The notes beneath the pieces are model-generated. The model saw only the letters and a program-made list of their open reading frames with translations. It searched no databases and was not told where the DNA came from. The position numbers and the translations under genes are program-made. Shown here one piece after another: positions 26,217-40,443 of a DNA stretch of 64,000 bases (position 1 is the first letter of the stretch; every line of letters begins with the position of its first letter). This stretch comes from Calditrichota bacterium (GTDB lineage: Bacteria; CLD3). The stretch covers positions 1 through 64,000 of the forward strand of contig QQUF01000008.1 in assembly GCA_008501735.1 (NCBI GenBank), in the 5' to 3' direction.

Positions 26217-26351
26217 TTGCTTTTCCTGTTTGTAGTATTTACTACAAAATGTAAAGCAAACAGATTTCATTGTCAAAATGAATTTAATTTTACCGAAAAC
26301 TTGATTTAGAATTTAAATTCTAAAAAACACTAAAATTTCTTGAGGATAAAA

Positions 26352-28199
26352 ATGAGACCTAACCAATTTCTTGCTTTTCGATTTTCTGAAACAGACGAAC
26401 CATTTAATTCTTACATCTTTTGGAATCACGAAACAGGTGAGCAATTCAAAGAAAAAATCATTGAACCTTTATCGTTAATAAATATTTTTATCGGACAAAA
26501 TAATTCTGGTAAAAGTAGGTTGTTAAGAGAGTTGGTAAAGAAGCAAGGTTTTGACTACAAAACTGAAAATTATAATTTTCAAACATTTTGTGAAATTTCA
26601 AAATCAATGGAGCCTTTCTTAAAAAGTGCTTTTCAAAAAGCGGGAAATAATATAAGTGGAGTAACTTATGAACAATTTTTTGAAAAATATTCAAAATCAA
26701 TGGATTTATTTATTCCTTATCTTGGTAAAGAAGACCCTTTGTATCATCTTCAAACTGGATTGAATAAACTAATTAATAATGACTTAATTAGAAATGGTAG
26801 GATTTATTTTAACCAGATAGATATAGAAAGTATGTTTAAAACATCCTTGGCCAAATTGAAGAACTACAAATTTAATTTAGATATTTTTAAAGCTAATAAA
26901 TTCTACATTCCTATTTTAAGAGGAATGAGACCATTTACTAATTCATCAAACAACTTTTATTTGAATAGGACAAAACAAGATTATGATTTGCCAGAATCTT
27001 ACATCTTCACAGGTTTAGAGCTTTACGAAGATTTAACAAACAAACTTCTTGGAAAGCCTGATGGAAGAAAAGCTGTAAAAGATTATGAAGATTTTTTATC
27101 AAAATATTTTTTTGACGGAAAAGAAGTAACTCTAATTCCTCTGGTAAATTCTGACACTGTTGAAGTAAAAATTGGAGATGAAAAACAATATCCAATTCAC
27201 CAACTTGGAGATGGATTACAAAATCTAATAATTGTCACTTACAAAATCTTTTTAGAAAAAGAACGGTGTTTGTTCTTTTTTGAGGAGCCAGATTTGTATA
27301 TGCATCCGGGAATGCAAAGAGCATTTCTTGAAGTTCTTTTGAAGCACAACCACCACCAATATTTTCTGACAACTCACTCAAATCATTTGCTCGATATGAC
27401 TTTGGATTACCAAGAGATTTCAGTTTTCCACTTTCAGAAGAAAGGTGATGGTAAAGAAACAAAATTTGAAGTTAAGCCGATTTCAACAGGCGACAGGAAT
27501 TTGCTACAAGATTTAGGAGTAAGAAATTCTTCTGTTTTTCTAACCAATGCAACAATTTGGGTCGAAGGAATCACAGACAGACTTTACTTAAGAGTTTACT
27601 TAGAAAAATATTTGCAAGAATTGGAAAAAGAAGGAAGCAAACTTTATGAGGGTTTTGCAAAACTCAAAGAAGACTTTCATTATTCTTTTATTGAGTATCA
27701 AGGCTCGAATCTTGTTCACTGGACTTTTGAAGAAGGAAGCGATGAAAAGATAAATGCTCTCAAAGTTTGCGGAAATCCATTAATAATTGCTGATGGAGAT
27801 GTTGCAGGAAAGGGAACTCGAATTGAAGACTTGAGCAATACACTTGGAGAGGAAAAAGTAATCGTTTTAGACTGCAAAGAAATTGAAAACCTAATTCCTG
27901 AAGAACTTTTGAAAAGACACAAAAAAGTTATTTCAGAGTTTGGGGAGAAATTAGGTGAAATAAAGATTAGTGAATATTCTCAAAGAAAGACAATTGGAAT
28001 TGGTGGCTATTTGGACAAGAAACTGAAAAAAACTAATACTTTTTCTGATACTCAAACAGGCACTGTCAAAAACAAAGTGAAATTTTGTGAGCAAATTGTT
28101 GAGGACGCAAGAAATAATTTTGATTCTTGGAAATTGCCGAACGAACTCAAAGAACTTTGTAAAAATATCTTTGAACACATTCGGCAAGCAAACTCATAA
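26352..28199 (+). CDS. OLD-family ATPase with TOPRIM nuclease domain
   Basis: The start at 26352 follows TGAGGATAAAA and gives 615 residues. The N-terminal ABC-type ATPase has Walker A GQNNSGKS (residues 48-55), a QLGDGLQN signature-like segment, Walker B FFFEEPDLYMHP and switch TTHSNHLL. After about residue 390 a TOPRIM-like domain follows, with VEGITDRLY (acidic Glu) and LIIADGD (DxD-type acids). This is the class 1 OLD layout shared with anti-phage nucleases such as P2 Old and GajA. There is no adjacent UvrD-like helicase, which argues against Gabija. A MazEF-like pair is divergent just upstream. A role in phage defence is inference. Confidence 0.8.
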   Translation: MRPNQFLAFRFSETDEPFNSYIFWNHETGEQFKEKIIEPLSLINIFIGQNNSGKSRLLRELVKKQGFDYKTENYNFQTFCEISKSMEPFLKSAFQKAGNNISGVTYEQFFEKYSKSMDLFIPYLGKEDPLYHLQTGLNKLINNDLIRNGRIYFNQIDIESMFKTSLAKLKNYKFNLDIFKANKFYIPILRGMRPFTNSSNNFYLNRTKQDYDLPESYIFTGLELYEDLTNKLLGKPDGRKAVKDYEDFLSKYFFDGKEVTLIPLVNSDTVEVKIGDEKQYPIHQLGDGLQNLIIVTYKIFLEKERCLFFFEEPDLYMHPGMQRAFLEVLLKHNHHQYFLTTHSNHLLDMTLDYQEISVFHFQKKGDGKETKFEVKPISTGDRNLLQDLGVRNSSVFLTNATIWVEGITDRLYLRVYLEKYLQELEKEGSKLYEGFAKLKEDFHYSFIEYQGSNLVHWTFEEGSDEKINALKVCGNPLIIADGDVAGKGTRIEDLSNTLGEEKVIVLDCKEIENLIPEELLKRHKKVISEFGEKLGEIKISEYSQRKTIGIGGYLDKKLKKTNTFSDTQTGTVKNKVKFCEQIVEDARNNFDSWKLPNELKELCKNIFEHIRQANS

Positions 28200-34047: not shown

Positions 34048-34437
34048 TTAAGGGTAACTAAGCAATTCTAACTCTTTAATAAATCGGTAGTCTTTTTGAT
34101 TTTTTGATAGGAAAGGAACTTTTAAGGTAATTGCCGTTGCTGCAATAATTGAATCTGGAATTAGTAAGCCGTGACTCAAGCGGTAATTGGAAAGTAACTT
34201 GATTGCCTTTTCAGAAATTTCTTCGGATAGACTTAAAATTTCGTAACGTTTTAAAAATTTGCTTAAAATATTAAGCTCCCTTTTATTGGCACAACCAACA
34301 ATCAATTCCATTTTAGTGATTGAGCTAATTTGCAAATTACTTTTGCTTTCTTCAAGTCTCAACCGATTTATTGCCGTAATTTCTTCTCGTGCAACATCAA
34401 TGAGAATGTCTGTGTCAACAAGTAAACTTTTACTCAA
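34048..34437 (-). CDS. VapC-family PIN-domain toxin
   Basis: The 129-residue PIN domain has the acidic metal-binding set: Asp8 in LLVDTDILID, Glu44 in KMELIVG, Asp95 in IPDSIIAATA and Asp116. These toxins are Mg-dependent RNases, often cutting tRNA. The start is a TTG directly abutting the antitoxin stop (TAA-TTG), so translation is coupled. It ends 36 bp before the intact acetyltransferase gene. Confidence 0.9.
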   Translation of the reverse strand: MSKSLLVDTDILIDVAREEITAINRLRLEESKSNLQISSITKMELIVGCANKRELNILSKFLKRYEILSLSEEISEKAIKLLSNYRLSHGLLIPDSIIAATAITLKVPFLSKNQKDYRFIKELELLSYP

Positions 34438-34671
34438 TTAATCAGCCCAATCAGATTTTCGTAAGTTTTTTACCCAATTAGAACTATCTGCCAAATCTTC
34501 TCGATTTTTCCACATTCCAACAAATTTCTCTTCTTCTAAGTTCACCATTTTGTTTTTACGTGTTCTTTTTGAGTTACGGCTTTTGTTTTTTGAAAGTAAA
34601 AAATCAATTACTTCTTTTTGGTCATCACTTGAAAGAGATTCAAGTTTTTCAATAAAATTTTCTGAAAGCAT
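34438..34671 (-). CDS. VapB-like antitoxin
   Basis: This 77-residue protein has a helical N-terminus (LESLSSDDQKEVIDFLLS), a basic middle (SRNSKRTRKNK) and a C-terminus with GMWKNREDLADSSNWVKNLRKSDW. The last part resembles the toxin-neutralising tails of DUF2281/VapB-type antitoxins (FGCAKGxF...-like). It abuts the VapC gene without a gap. The identification rests on position, size and the tail. Confidence 0.75.
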   Translation of the reverse strand: MLSENFIEKLESLSSDDQKEVIDFLLSKNKSRNSKRTRKNKMVNLEEEKFVGMWKNREDLADSSNWVKNLRKSDWAD

Positions 34672-34760
34672 TTTGTAATCCTTTGAAAATTAAAATTCAA
34701 GTTAAAAAGTAGCAAAAGAATACCCACAAACAAAATTTTTTTAGAAGTGCCAAATCCCAA

Positions 34761-34866
34761 AATCCGTGAAATCAGTTAATCCGTTTTAATCCGTGATTCA
34801 GACATCGGAATCAGTGTTACAAATTTTCCCGAAAGTTCAATGTCTTGTAGCCAATTAGTCATTTTA
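34761..34866 (-). repeat. Repeat block 1: conserved repeat plus remnant of the acetyltransferase 5' end
   Basis: This block of about 105 bp is near-identical to 35524-35628. Read on the minus strand, it starts with ATG at 34862 and gives a 20-residue copy of the intact acetyltransferase start (K6 changed to Q). It then leaves that gene at codon 21 into a direct-repeat motif built on AATCCGTG (34761-34800). The matching part of the intact gene is at 33954-34011. The remnant stops soon after codon 20. Confidence 0.88.
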
Positions 34867-35193
34867 ATTGCCAAGAATTTCGTTCAAGCCGTCAATAATT
34901 ATGTCTAATTCTTCTTGGCTTACTTTACTAATGAAATTACCAATTCTTTTGACCGACAAAGTCCTAATTTGGCTAATTTTTACCCACGATTTTTTAGGTG
35001 ATTTTGGAGAAGTTAGTTCATAAACAAGTGGGAAACCTACTTTGGGGCTTTTACTTGTGATTGCCAAACCAATTACTGTTCCTGAACGTTCGTTAAAAAC
35101 ATCTTCACTAATCACAAGAATTGGTCTTAGTCCTGCTTGTTCATTTCCGATTGTTGGATTTAGATTCGCCCAAAAAATATCTCCTCTTAATAT
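34864..35193 (-). CDS. Second MazF/PemK toxin, lacking a canonical start codon
   Basis: The frame reads [39 protein letters not shown] and a helical end, a clear MazF. The expected start position, just before xRGDIFW, is ATA (35193-35191); the preceding codon is TGA, and no ATG, GTG or TTG precedes the conserved RGD segment. An internal GTG at 35115 would remove the first 26 residues, including the RGDIFW strand. It overlaps the antitoxin stop, as in the first MazEF. Either it starts at AUA, or the toxin has been silenced by a start-codon change. Confidence 0.72.
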
Positions 35194-35429
35194 TCATCCC
35201 ATTCCTCAATCTCCATTTCCATTCCTTCTTCTGCTAAGTTGATTTCTTCTTCGGGATTCAGTTTTGCACACTCAACAGCCAAACGACTTTTAGAAATTCT
35301 CGCAAGTTTATCGCTAACGGCTTCTTGAATTGCTTTACTTCTGTTAGGAAAAAATTTTCTACTTACCAAACTATCCAATTCCCTCAAAATATTTTCGTCT
35401 AATGAAATTGCAATTTTTGTGGCTGGCAT
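35187..35429 (-). CDS. Second MazE-like ribbon-helix-helix antitoxin
   Basis: The 80-residue protein has an N-terminal ribbon-helix-helix ([20 protein letters not shown], then [17 protein letters not shown]) as in NdoAI/CopG antitoxins, and a very acidic C-terminus ([13 protein letters not shown]) for toxin binding. It ends inside the start of the MazF-like frame. It is intact even though its toxin start is abnormal. Confidence 0.87.
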
Positions 35430-35639: not shown

Positions 35640-35790
35640 TTTTTTAAGAAAGTGCTGAGTTGTAGCAAAATTACAAATTTTGTAATTTTTTAAATTAAGA
35701 CAACGTTTAAAAAAAAGCGAATAGATTTTGAATTCAAAATTTCCAAAAACAACGCTTTTAAAACGATATTTTTAACAAATTTAAATATCG
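35640..35790. other. Palindrome-rich non-coding patch
   Basis: Three hairpins lie in a row. The first is AAAATTACAAA (35667-35677) with TTTGTAATTTT (35679-35689). The second is AAAAGCG (35713-35719) with CGCTTTT (35753-35759), enclosing the perfect palindrome ATTTTGAATTCAAAAT (35725-35740). The third is CGATATTT (35764-35771) with AAATATCG (35783-35790). The last abuts the polA remnant. No gene is present. Confidence 0.6.
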
Positions 35791-36068
35791 TCAACTTTTA
35801 CTGAAGCTTCCAAAGATAATACTTTTTCCATTTCAGATTTTAGAAGCACTTTCACTTCGTCAAGTTCGTCGTGGACTTGTAGAATCATTTTTGTTTCACA
35901 GGCTTTTTCTATCAAAATTTTGTGAATGCTAATCATCACAAGTTTTATCATAAATTCCTTGAATCGGAAAATTTATCGCTACACGTTCCGCAGCTCCTCG
36001 CATCAATCTGTTTTTGGAATGAATACAGAGTAGCTTCTTAACTTTCCACAAAGTATTTTCACAAAATT
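35789..36068 (-). pseudogene. Decayed duplicate of the polA 3' end
   Basis: This stretch aligns with the 3' part of the intact polA (37118-37437, residues about 795-901). It shares exact runs such as GATTTTAGAAGCACTTTCA, TTCGTCAAGTTCG and TCTGTTTTTGGAATGAAT (+ strand), in the same order and orientation. It has two deletions of about 27 and 10 bases and many substitutions, so no frame survives; the catalytic VHDELVFE region is partly lost. It is separated from the intact polA by an attC-like-flanked gene cassette. No ORF is left, so it is a pseudogene fragment. Confidence 0.85.
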
Positions 36069-36208
36069 TTTATTTTTCGGCGGGACTTTTTATTATTTAG
36101 GTTGGTTCGTTTCCAGTTTCTAAACTCTTGAAATACTTTTCTAAAATTTCTTGTTTCTTCACATTTCTTTGGTTAGTTTTCTTGGTAAACGAGATTCTAC
36201 ATTTTGGT

Positions 36209-36266
36209 CTAAAATTAAAAACAATAGTTCCGATAAACACAATGCGTTTATTAGGATGTTATCAGT
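36209..36266. repeat. attC-like site A (left boundary of the cassette)
   Basis: An imperfect inverted repeat (CTAA 36209-36212 with TTAG 36251-36254; AAAC 36219-36222 with GTTT 36246-36249) ends in GTTATCAGT (36258-36266). It shares CAATAGTTCC and TGCGTTTA, in the same order and nearly the same spacing, with site B downstream of the gene. Its terminal GTTATCAGT is the exact reverse complement of ACTGATAAC, which opens site B. Confidence 0.6.
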
Positions 36267-36311
36267 AATCCAAAACCGAAAACCAAACAAAAACTAATTT
36301 AAATAATCAAT

Positions 36312-36968
36312 ATGAACTTAGACTTATTTACAGACCAAACAAAAACAAAAATACTTGAAGAAGAAATTCTATTAAGAAGGAAGTCTTTTGACTCAGGCGA
36401 TATAGTTGGTGAAGAAGTAGGTCCTGGTGGCCAAGGAGCAGCTATTGAAGTAATTGCAATAATATTAGGTTTTATTGGTACGACTATAGCAAGCGGATTA
36501 ATAAGAGAGTTTTCAAAAGATTTATATAGTAAAATTAAGACCTTTCTAAAACAGGAGAAACCCGCAATAGAACATTTGACTTTTAATAATTACTATTTCG
36601 TTTATTGTTATGCATTTGTTTATGAAATAGGTAATAGTAAAATAGTATTCGCTTTTGATGTTGAAAGTTCAAATCAATTATATAAAATTATTGAAAATTG
36701 CGATGACCTTATAACAGATTGCCTAATCCAAATTCTAGAAAATATTAATTTAAATAAAAATCAAATAGTAGAATTAGATATAAGTTTTGGATATTATGCA
36801 TTTCATGGTAAAAGGGCAAAATCTGTTGAAGTAGAACACGAAGTACATTATGTCAGAAATGGCAAAAAAAGCATAGAAAACGAAAAAATTGGAGTTTATG
36901 TAAGTTATAAGATTTGCAAAAATGACTCTAAACATTGGATTAACCAGACAACCTCTATCAGCAAGTAA
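36312..36968 (+). CDS. Hypothetical protein carried on an integron-like cassette
   Basis: This 218-residue protein is not recognised. It has an acidic/basic N-terminus, a Gly-rich segment GPGGQGAAIEV leading into one predicted membrane helix (about residues 46-66), a short amphipathic region, and a soluble beta-rich C-terminal part (FVYCYAFVYEI, IVFAFDVE, ISFGYYAFHG, KIGVYVSYKI). It is the only + strand gene in the 28-40 kb stretch, more AT-rich than its neighbours, and sits alone between two attC-like sites, about 50 bp after the cassette start. That is typical of integron cassettes, which often carry orphan genes. No function can be claimed. Confidence 0.75.
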   Translation: MNLDLFTDQTKTKILEEEILLRRKSFDSGDIVGEEVGPGGQGAAIEVIAIILGFIGTTIASGLIREFSKDLYSKIKTFLKQEKPAIEHLTFNNYYFVYCYAFVYEIGNSKIVFAFDVESSNQLYKIIENCDDLITDCLIQILENINLNKNQIVELDISFGYYAFHGKRAKSVEVEHEVHYVRNGKKSIENEKIGVYVSYKICKNDSKHWINQTTSISK

Positions 36969-36982
36969 TGAAGGAAAGGAAT

Positions 36983-37048
36983 ACTGATAACAATGGCTAA
37001 AACGGCAATAGTTCCCATTCGGTCGCTACTGCGTTTAGCCGAGCCGTT
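36983..37048. repeat. attC-like site B (right boundary of the cassette)
   Basis: ACTGATAAC (36983-36991) is followed by an imperfect hairpin, GGCTAAA (36995-37001) with TTTAGCC (37034-37040), continued by CG/CG with unpaired bases A37002 and G37005. AACGGC (37001-37006) and GCCGTT (37043-37048) form a second, overlapping inverted pair ending in GTT. CAATAGTTCC and TGCGTTTA inside it are shared with site A. The arrangement (nested inverted repeats with extrahelical bases, ending in GTT, directly after a gene) matches attC recombination sites in form, though the consensus is not exact. Confidence 0.65.
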
Positions 37049-37082
37049 CGCACACAATCTTTACTCTCTTTCCATTTAAATT

Positions 37083-39821
37083 TTAATGTGCCTCAAGCCA
37101 ATTCCCTCCAATTCCAACGTCAACTTTTACAGGGACTTCCAAAGGTAAGGCTTTTTCCATTTCGGATTTTAGAAGCACTTTCATTTCGTCAAGTTCGGAG
37201 TTCGGAATTTCAAACACAAGTTCATCGTGGACTTGCAGAACCATTTTTGTCTTGCAGGCTTTTTGCATTAAAATTTTGTGAATGTTAATCATCGCAATTT
37301 TTATCATATCTGCCGCAGTTCCTTGAATCGGGAAATTTATCGCTGCACGTTCTGCCGCTTCTCGCATCATTCTGTTTTTGGAATGAATGTCAGAGTAACT
37401 TCTTCGTCTTCCGCAAAGTGTCTCGACAAAATTTTCCTCTTTAGCTTTTTGCTTCGTACTTTCCAAGTAGTCGTAAACTCCTGAATATTTTGCAAAATAA
37501 TCTTTGATGAATTGGTTGCCTTCTTTTGGCGAAATCCCAAGTCTTTTGCCCAGAGAAAATCCACCTTCTCCGTAAATAATTCCAAAGTTTACAGCCTTCG
37601 CTTGGTAACGTTCTTGGTCTGAAACTTCCTCGTAAGATTTTTCAAAAACAAGAGCCGCAGTTGCTCGGTGAACGTCAAGTTCCTCTTGGAATGCTTTTCG
37701 TAAATTTGCGTCGCCTGAAATGTGAGCCATAATTCTAAGCTCAATTTGCGAGTAGTCAGCAGCGAGTAAAACAGAATCTTTTTCTTGTGGCACAAAGCCC
37801 ATTCTGATTTTTCTGCCGATTTCCGTTCTGTTCGGAATGTTTTGCAAATTCGGGTCTGTCGAAGAAAGTCTTCCTGTCGAAGCAATTGTTTGGTTAAAAT
37901 TTCCGTGAATCCGTTTGTCGCCAACAAAAATCATTGAAGGAAGTGCGTCAACGTAAGTGGATTTTAGTTTCGTCAAACTTCGGTATTCCAAAAGTCTTTC
38001 GGGCAAAGGGTGTTCTTTCGCCAAAGTTTCCAAAACTCTAACGTCTGTTGAACGACCTGTTTTTGTCTTTTTCACAACACGCAAACCGAGTTTATCAAAA
38101 AGAATTACTCCAAGTTGTTGAGTCGAATTAATGTTGAAATTTTCGCCTGCCATTGCATAAATGTCGTCTTTGATTTTCACAAGTTGTTGGCTCAAATCCA
38201 TTCCCATTTCCGAGAAAAAGTAGTCGTCGATGTAAATTCCATTCGCTTCCATTTCTGTCAAAACTTCAATCAATGGCAATTCGATTTTGTGAAAAAGTTC
38301 CTCGACTCCTTGTTCTTTGACCATTGGAGCTAAAACTTCCTTGAGACGAAAAGTAAAATCTGCGTCTTCACAAGCGTAAATTTTCACGTCTTCAACGGGA
38401 ACTTTGTCCATCGTAATCATTTTTTTGCCTGTTCCAATCAATTCCTTAGTCGGAATTTTTTGGTAATTCAAGTAAGTCAGGCACATTTCGTCCAAAGAAT
38501 TTCTTCGGGTTTCAGGATTTGGCAAAACGTAGTTTGCAATCATTGTGTCGAAAGAAATTCCTTTTACACTCACGCCTTTAGCTTTCAAAATTCTGCAATC
38601 GTACTTTGTGTTTTGCCCAAACTTCGGAACTTTTGGGTCTTCCAAAACAGGCTTTAGGATTTCCAAAATTTCTTTGGTAAAATTCTTTTGTTTCGGTTGT
38701 GCAAAAATGTCCATTTGTCCACTTTCGGCACTTTCACCTTGTTCTTTTCCGCTCAAAACTGTCGGAATGTAAAACGCTTTTCCTTTTTCCATTGAAAATG
38801 AAAGTCCGACAAGTTCAGCTTCTTCGGGACTCAAAGAAGTAGTTTCAGTGTCAAAAGCAAATTCATTTTTCTTAAGAATTTTGGCAAGTTTTTTCACGCC
38901 TTCAAGAGTGTCAACAAGTTGGTAATCCGTTTCGATTTCTTCAACTTTTTCGACTTCGGGTTCGATTTCGCCCTTAATTAGAGACCAAAAATCAAGCTCC
39001 GCAAAAATCTGATTTCGCTTTGAGTAATCAGGGTGTGAAAGTTTTAATTTTTCAAGGTCAAACTCAACTTCGCAGTCAGTTTTGATTGTTACAAGTTCTT
39101 TTGAAAGAAAAGCCATTTCTTTGTCAGCGATGAGTTTGTCTTTTACTTTTCCTTTAACTTTTTCGACGTTTTCGTAAATCTGCTCAAGGCTTCCAAATTC
39201 CTGCACTAACTTTGTCGCCGTTTTTTCACCAACACCTTTTACTCCCGGAATGTTATCGGAAGCGTCACCCATTAAAGCCAAAATGTCAATAACTCTTTCA
39301 GGTCCAACTCCGAATTTTTCAGGGACTCTTTCTAAAGTTATTTTATCAGGTTCTTCACTTGCTTTTGAAGGTTTGTAAATGCTGATTTTTTCGGTAACAA
39401 GTTGCAAGTAATCTTTGTCAGGAGTTACCATAACAACGTCAAGACCTTCTGATTCTGCCTTTTGAGCAAGAGTTCCGATTAAGTCGTCAGCTTCAAAACC
39501 CGGAGTTTTGAAAAGCGGAACTTCGTAAGCCTCAATCAACTGGTCGAGCCAAGGAAGCTGAGTAACTAAATCTTCGGGCATTGACTCACGATTCGCTTTG
39601 TAAGGCTCGAACCTTACGTGTCTGAAAGTCGGTTCTTTGCAGTCCATCGCAACAGCGAGAAAATCTGGTTTTTCTTGTTCGATGATTCTGTTCATCGTTG
39701 TTGCAAATCCGTAAACAGCACTCGTGTTTTCGCCTTTAGAATTTCTCAAAGGTCTTTTCATAAAAGCAAAGTAAGCTCGGTAGGCAATCGCCATTCCGTC
39801 AATTAAATAAAGTGTAGGCAT
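37083..39821 (-). CDS. polA: DNA polymerase I
   Basis: This 912-residue, three-domain Pol I has an N-terminal 5' nuclease (LIDGMAIAYRAYF, DKDYLQLV, GDASDNIPGVKGVGEKTA), a 3'-5' exonuclease-like domain with FAFDTETTS and a late YACEDADFT (acidic residues kept, so proofreading may be active), and a family A polymerase with DPNLQNIP, AADYSQIELR, VNFGIIYGEG and QVHDELVFEI. It fills gaps in repair and removes RNA primers. Its 3' end, 35 bp from attC-like site B, has a decayed second copy on the other side of the cassette. It is immediately preceded by a MntA-HepT pair on the same strand. Confidence 0.97.
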   Translation of the reverse strand: MPTLYLIDGMAIAYRAYFAFMKRPLRNSKGENTSAVYGFATTMNRIIEQEKPDFLAVAMDCKEPTFRHVRFEPYKANRESMPEDLVTQLPWLDQLIEAYEVPLFKTPGFEADDLIGTLAQKAESEGLDVVMVTPDKDYLQLVTEKISIYKPSKASEEPDKITLERVPEKFGVGPERVIDILALMGDASDNIPGVKGVGEKTATKLVQEFGSLEQIYENVEKVKGKVKDKLIADKEMAFLSKELVTIKTDCEVEFDLEKLKLSHPDYSKRNQIFAELDFWSLIKGEIEPEVEKVEEIETDYQLVDTLEGVKKLAKILKKNEFAFDTETTSLSPEEAELVGLSFSMEKGKAFYIPTVLSGKEQGESAESGQMDIFAQPKQKNFTKEILEILKPVLEDPKVPKFGQNTKYDCRILKAKGVSVKGISFDTMIANYVLPNPETRRNSLDEMCLTYLNYQKIPTKELIGTGKKMITMDKVPVEDVKIYACEDADFTFRLKEVLAPMVKEQGVEELFHKIELPLIEVLTEMEANGIYIDDYFFSEMGMDLSQQLVKIKDDIYAMAGENFNINSTQQLGVILFDKLGLRVVKKTKTGRSTDVRVLETLAKEHPLPERLLEYRSLTKLKSTYVDALPSMIFVGDKRIHGNFNQTIASTGRLSSTDPNLQNIPNRTEIGRKIRMGFVPQEKDSVLLAADYSQIELRIMAHISGDANLRKAFQEELDVHRATAALVFEKSYEEVSDQERYQAKAVNFGIIYGEGGFSLGKRLGISPKEGNQFIKDYFAKYSGVYDYLESTKQKAKEENFVETLCGRRRSYSDIHSKNRMMREAAERAAINFPIQGTAADMIKIAMINIHKILMQKACKTKMVLQVHDELVFEIPNSELDEMKVLLKSEMEKALPLEVPVKVDVGIGGNWLEAH

Positions 39822-39824
39822 AAT

Positions 39825-40151
39825 TTATAAAATCTTTTCTAATTGTTTAATCAAAGGTGGTAAATTAGTTTTTACAGTTTCCCAAACGACTTCAAAGTCA
39901 ACGTCATCGTATTCGTGAATTAAGAAATTTCTCATACTTTTCATTTCTCTCCAAGGTAAATCTGAATAGATTTCTTTTCCTGTTTCAGAAACTTTTGAAG
40001 AGGCTTCTCCAATAATTTCTAATCTGCGAATTACAGCATCTTGAGTTTTGTAATCAGAGTTGAATTTCTCTTGAGAAAAGTTTTCTAAGTAGGAAACTGC
40101 AATTTTTGCAGAATCTAAAATATCTATTAAATAGGTTTCATCTTTCTTCAT
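39825..40151 (-). CDS. hepT: HepT-like HEPN toxin
   Basis: The 108-residue HEPN/DUF86 protein carries the RNase motif RX4HXY as RNFLIHEY, with the conserved LEIIGEASSKV and DLPWREMKSMRN. HepT is an RNase that its partner MntA neutralises by adenylylating the Tyr of this motif. It overlaps the mntA 3' end by 14 bases and ends 3 bp before the polA start, so polA may share its transcript. Confidence 0.9.
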   Translation of the reverse strand: MKKDETYLIDILDSAKIAVSYLENFSQEKFNSDYKTQDAVIRRLEIIGEASSKVSETGKEIYSDLPWREMKSMRNFLIHEYDDVDFEVVWETVKTNLPPLIKQLEKIL

Positions 40152-40443
40152 AAATTACTCTTGCTGATTTTAAAATTTCTTCACGTCTCAAATGATTTCT
40201 ACTCGCTTCAATTCCTTTTTTGCTCACTAAGTCAACATTTCTACCTAAAAGTTTTTCAAGCTCCATTTGAATTTTAGAAAGTTCAAAGAAACCATAACGA
40301 ACTTTTTTAGAGAAGGTGAAGAGTAAGTCCACATCACTTTTCTCCGAAAAATCTTTTCTTAAAGCTGAACCAAAAAGTGAAAGATTATCAATTTTCCATT
40401 TTTTACACAAAGCCTCAATTTCTTTTTGGGGAATTTGTATCAT
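40138..40443 (-). CDS. mntA: MntA-like minimal nucleotidyltransferase antitoxin
   Basis: This 101-residue minimal nucleotidyltransferase has GSX10DXD spelled exactly (GSALRKDFSEKSDVD), the catalytic motif of MntA. It AMPylates HepT in the characterised systems. A C-terminal acidic/basic helix follows. It is upstream of and overlaps hepT, the usual order. Confidence 0.9.
   Translation of the reverse strand: MIQIPQKEIEALCKKWKIDNLSLFGSALRKDFSEKSDVDLLFTFSKKVRYGFFELSKIQMELEKLLGRNVDLVSKKGIEASRNHLRREEILKSARVIYEER

Follow-up and report, generated by a model that had tools for sequence, protein, structure and literature searches.

A candidate lone integron-type gene cassette beside polA in a Calditrichota bacterium

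How does a single orphan gene, bounded by an inverted repeat and followed by a hairpin, come to have polA on one side and a decayed duplicate of the 3' end of polA on the other? The locus falls within a stretch of 64,000 nucleotides of contig QQUF01000008.1 (assembly GCA_008501735.1), referred to here as the window. A preliminary description presented the gene as a mobilised integron-type cassette with two attC-like sites and a self-complementary junction. Its coordinates and motifs are correct (Table 1): the gene is an open frame with its stop codon 14 bp upstream of the downstream site, site B, and, as had been claimed for 28-40 kb, no other convincing plus-strand gene is found between 28.2 and 40.6 kb. 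The polA-tail duplicate, which adjoins the upstream site, site A, on its left, had been overlooked. It carries both in-frame and frameshifting deletions, and informative sites (45 vs 10) identify it as a decaying copy of the polA of the same genome. Site A itself was considered as part of this pseudogene and rejected, since the homology ends near 36150. In a sister genus, the cassette is absent from the approximately 300 bp available downstream of polA.

Table 1. Features of the polA locus and of the proposed cassette
Feature	Position	Strand	Basis or remark
polA 3' end, decayed duplicate with stops and frameshifting deletions	35789..36150 (right end about)	-	sequence comparison
Site A, belonging to the left flank, a decayed attC at most	36209..36257	+	weak fold; four other places resemble site B more
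Left junction GTTATCAGT, paired with R'' of site B once the ends are joined in a circle	36258..36266	+	repeat, fold, anchored test
Proposed gene cassette of 788 bp, starting at the T that follows G36258 and ending with the last G of its attC	36259..37046	+	ends predicted from the inverted repeat and from the rule that IntI crosses over at G|TT (PMC2727003)
Orphan ORF	36312-36968	+	218 aa; GC3 0.187
Site B, attC-type hairpin	36983..37048	+	fold; best AAC/GTT stem in the window; anchored test
Right flank, beginning TTCGC, then the polA stop	37047..37082		sequence
polA, intact DNA polymerase I	37083..39821	-	gene annotation

The surroundings contain a toxin-antitoxin-like gene cluster on the minus strand, which flanks the site (34048-35429 and 39825-40443) and includes a PIN-domain toxin, a PemK/MazF-like toxin with a ribbon-helix-helix partner, and a HepT/nucleotidyltransferase pair. 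This cluster suggests a hotspot of gene exchange next to polA. Further upstream, a plus-strand gene at 26340-28199 encodes an AAA ATPase of the AAA_15/AAA_21 type, possibly a defence gene; its GC content of 0.31 is below that of most of its neighbours.

The junction is the feature from which the cassette ends are read. As the preliminary description stated, GTTATCAGT is the exact complement of ACTGATAAC (36983-36991), which opens site B. The complementarity extends to an inverted repeat, 36257-36271 and 36978-36992, whose 15-bp arms (TGTTATCAGTAATCC and GGAATACTGATAACA) have TG...CA ends and pair at 14 of 15 bases. The left arm starts about 55 bp upstream of the start codon; the right arm begins about 10 bp past the stop and leads directly into the hairpin that closes at GTT, 37046-37048. 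When the ends are joined, 10 consecutive nucleotides of R'' complement the cassette start, within the 9-11 complementary nucleotides of attC arms (PMC2727003). The ORF is in the cassette-type orientation, the same as that of its attC, and occupies most of the unit.

The joined site B reads ACTGATAAC-AAT-GGCT-A-AAACG-G-CAATAG...CTACTG-CGTTT-AGCC-GAGCC-GTTATCAGT. Its parts are the R'' box ACTGATAAC, a spacer AAT, the L'' arm GGCT-A-AAACG-G-CAATAG, a loop, the L' arm CTACTG-CGTTT-AGCC, a spacer GAGCC, and GTT. An outer arm of 10 bp is followed by unpaired spacers and by a stem of 4 bp, an extra base, 5 bp, a second extra base, and 6 bp. An attC site has two or three extra bases, which are required to lie on the R''-L'' arm (PMC2727003), and both extra bases of site B, together with the unpaired spacers AAT and GAGCC, follow this anatomy. 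On the bottom strand these bases are T and C, instead of the usual G and T. The only sequences conserved among attC sites are AAC and GTT (PMC2727003), and both triplets are present at the ends of the hairpin (AAC at 36989-36991). The boxes TGATAAC and GTTATCA (joined) or GTTCGCA (integrated) depart from RYYYAAC and GTTRRRY, each matching at the triplet and one further position. The RYYYAAC/GTTRRRY consensus is typical of attC, not invariant.

Folding supports the joined form. With DNA parameters the bottom strand of joined site B folds at -14.5 kcal/mol (z -3.6), a value reached by none of 200 shuffles, and with RNA parameters at -30.7 (z -5.4). The unjoined site is equalled by 42 of 200 shuffles; since it folds no better than these, it is the first bases of the cassette that complete the site. 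An intrinsic terminator was considered for this hairpin and ruled out, as there is no T-run.

Site A is a different matter. Both sites had been said to fold into imperfect hairpins, and this is borne out for site B with its junction partner but not for site A, whose weak fold is matched by 11 of 200 shuffles (DNA parameters) and 13 of 200 (RNA parameters). The two common boxes, CAATAGTTCC...TGCGTTTA, do occur at 36222-36250 and 37006-37037, at slightly different spacings, with no other occurrence in the window and none expected. However, site A has no recognisable R'' box and its resemblance to site B is unexceptional: in a gapped alignment it ranks about fifth among window placements, with four other places scoring higher. 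Site A is left flank and possibly, at most, a decayed attC, and the proposal of a second attC-like site is not supported.

Comparison with known attC sites places joined site B within their range. Control sites were harvested from DNA beside real IntI genes of other phyla. Locus L082 is a dense attC array, and sites from several further loci have one ungapped layout in common, R''-3 nt-4 bp-extra base-6 bp-extra base-stem, which is seen once spacers and loops are trimmed. By our reading of the sequences, the 5 bp between the extra bases of site B also occur at L062 and L059. On a simple structural score, devised after the site was seen and thus somewhat flattering to it, joined site B reaches 26.0, compared with 22.6-32.2 for attC sites from IntI-bearing loci and with maxima of 22.1 in 94 kb of control DNA and 20.0 in the rest of the window. 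Site B has the top-scoring AAC/GTT stem in the window.

Because joining gives extra freedom, an anchored test was added, which asks for an AAC/GTT stem scoring at least 16 that has a junction complement of 10 nt located 200-1500 bp upstream. Applied to the real 306-kb contig, it finds this site, for which the chance expectation, flattered in the same way by the scoring scheme, is 0.0125 per 306-kb contig (80 order-2 resamplings). A second match on the contig, with its partner 2.1 kb away, was rejected as a terminator, being a perfect hairpin with a T-run. At a slightly looser cut-off, L082 gives 15 matches and L098 gives nine, indicating that real integron arrays are rich in the pattern. In the 1.04 of 4.14 Mb of the genome that was scanned, the anchored test finds no further attC-type site. 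As to the array itself, L082 (G290 contig C8, 64000-74407) belongs to another phylum and holds 14 attC sites of about 100 nt each over about 7.4 kb beside intI.

Covariance models do not recognise the site as it now stands. Two attC models, R1 and R2, were built, and R2 recovers held-out attC sites at 22.6-30.6 bits. Integrated site B, the form to which this scoring is confined, obtains 6.8 bits from R1, which is the background level, and no match from R2 even without filters. A lone cassette that has inserted outside an array takes six of its seven R' bases from the target and thereby loses the R''/R' pairing, and this loss accounts for part, perhaps not all, of the failure of the models on the integrated form. 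Searches of the window, the contig and the phylum with the models give no convincing match for site B, and the phylum search for attC is empty, although site B itself would escape such a search. The expectation of a second copy is not borne out by any other attC or copy of site B. The own genome yields short chance matches alone, and a DNA search of 386 genomes yields one short chance match, inside a coding gene. A search of viral and genome collections for the box pattern of site B gives five matches, and attC features are absent from all of them; four fall within or at coding genes, and the fifth (L097) was judged by sequence alone.

No integron integrase passes the cut-off in the same genome or in eight other genomes of the phylum. 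Own-genome matches to TIGR02249 are far under the cut-off and lack the profile segment around positions 187-242; they are probably XerC/XerD-type recombinases. Among the 386 genomes searched, 57 have a strong IntI match, whereas none of the nine of this phylum does. A complete integron, with intI and attI in the genome, is not found.

The product of the ORF has no credible family, solved-structure match or relative in the collections searched, and a single-sequence structure prediction gives a mean pLDDT of 41, too low to interpret. Most cassette genes of this type are orphans. The GC3 of the ORF is low (compared with 0.25-0.35 in seven other genes and polA), which fits a foreign origin.

Together, these features make it probable that the unit is a lone integron-type gene cassette, a CALIN of one attC, inserted outside an integron. 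Of the earlier proposal of a mobilised cassette outside an array, what stands is one cassette with its own attC, given the junction complement, the stem above chance and the array-like anatomy; the part that called for two attC sites does not. Membership among integron cassettes is not secured, because the boxes depart from the heptamer consensus, the covariance result is limited to the integrated form, and recombination of the site by IntI is a prediction from the sequence. In the proposed mechanism, the cassette would have been excised in circular form by a foreign IntI, either in trans or in an earlier host. Folding of the attC bottom strand and its recombination with a secondary, attG-like target, GATG|TTCGC, would have followed. 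Since G36258 precedes the cassette and its own G37046 precedes TTCGC, the implied empty site would read ...TTAGGATG|TTCGCACAC..., and the cassette would now be stranded in a genome with no detected integron integrase. The insertion point reads G|TT. This agrees with the GTT/GNT core at secondary sites of IntI (PMC10127599, PMC4618277) and so counts for secondary-site insertion. Cassettes can enter ordinary genome sites, termed attG, according to the accounts of Loot et al. 2024 given in PMC12444791 and PMC12901181. CALINs outnumber intI-bearing integrons and are more widely spread (PMC9668308).

Other origins have to be weighed against this one. An orphan ORF and a hairpin that has nothing to do with it may simply share the space between convergent genes, the repeat being fortuitous and picked out by a primed reader; orphan ORFs and intergenic hairpins are both common, the window was read with many potential findings in mind, and attC covariance models give the site no score. 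Such a coincidence would have to overcome the low expectation under order-2 shuffling, extra bases on the correct arm at natural spacing, and a hairpin that, for want of a T-run, is no intrinsic terminator. We consider it unlikely, though it is the rival that deserves most attention. Somewhat less plausible is a non-autonomous transposon-like element, 736 bp long (36257-36992), in which 15-bp terminal repeats enclose a passenger gene. The nearly complementary ends around one ORF and their TG...CA termini are what such an element would have, and near-perfect inverted repeats around a one-gene unit recall a MITE with a passenger gene. However, genome copies of the repeat are not above a backwards control, and an attC-type hairpin that begins within the right repeat and continues past it is left unexplained. 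Of terminal repeats, target duplication and copies, which together mark a MITE, the repeats alone are present: the unit is single and its ends show no clean target duplication.

A remnant of a two-cassette array is a poorer explanation still. Here site A would be a true attC, now decayed, left by an upstream cassette that has been lost, and entry would have been through an attC instead of a secondary site. Site A has exactly the position expected of a preceding attC and has two boxes in common with site B, and a rank of about fifth among window placements is some support; yet its weak fold, the missing R'' box, and an upstream region holding only polA pseudogene sequence and no gene speak against it. 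Least credible, and very improbable, is that solitary cassettes whose R boxes have diverged form a lineage of their own, moving in genomes that lack IntI through another tyrosine recombinase, such as host XerC/XerD. Were it true, cassettes could spread independently of integrons.

A lone integron-type cassette, the reading that we favour, shares with integron cassettes and the single-attC CALINs (PMC9024848) a single gene with an attC-type hairpin behind it, a cassette start that complements the R'' arm, and the lack of a neighbouring integrase. It differs in that its R boxes match only at AAC and GTT, its integrated form is unscored by covariance models, and it is a single copy outside any array. 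IntegronFinder calls a CALIN by default from at least two attC sites within 4 kb, and only site B qualifies here; single-attC cases can be real and are not in the default output (PMC9024848). Secondary-site and attG insertions, as far as they are described in PMC10127599 and, for Loot et al. 2024, through PMC12444791 and PMC12901181, likewise have a G|TT (GNT) target core and no array or attI, but those are laboratory events with a known integrase, whereas here the event is deduced and no integrase is found.

If this reading is true, the locus is a natural case of a cassette that has left the integron system for an ordinary site in the chromosome, and the phylum, a small one, shows no integron integrase in any of the nine genomes searched. 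It would be a modest new example of a known phenomenon, and it is not proven. Because the target supplies most of one R box, lone cassettes escape the detection rules that current tools apply. An anchored search, combining the junction complement with the stem, would detect them, and the rate at which cassettes seed ordinary chromosomes would become measurable.
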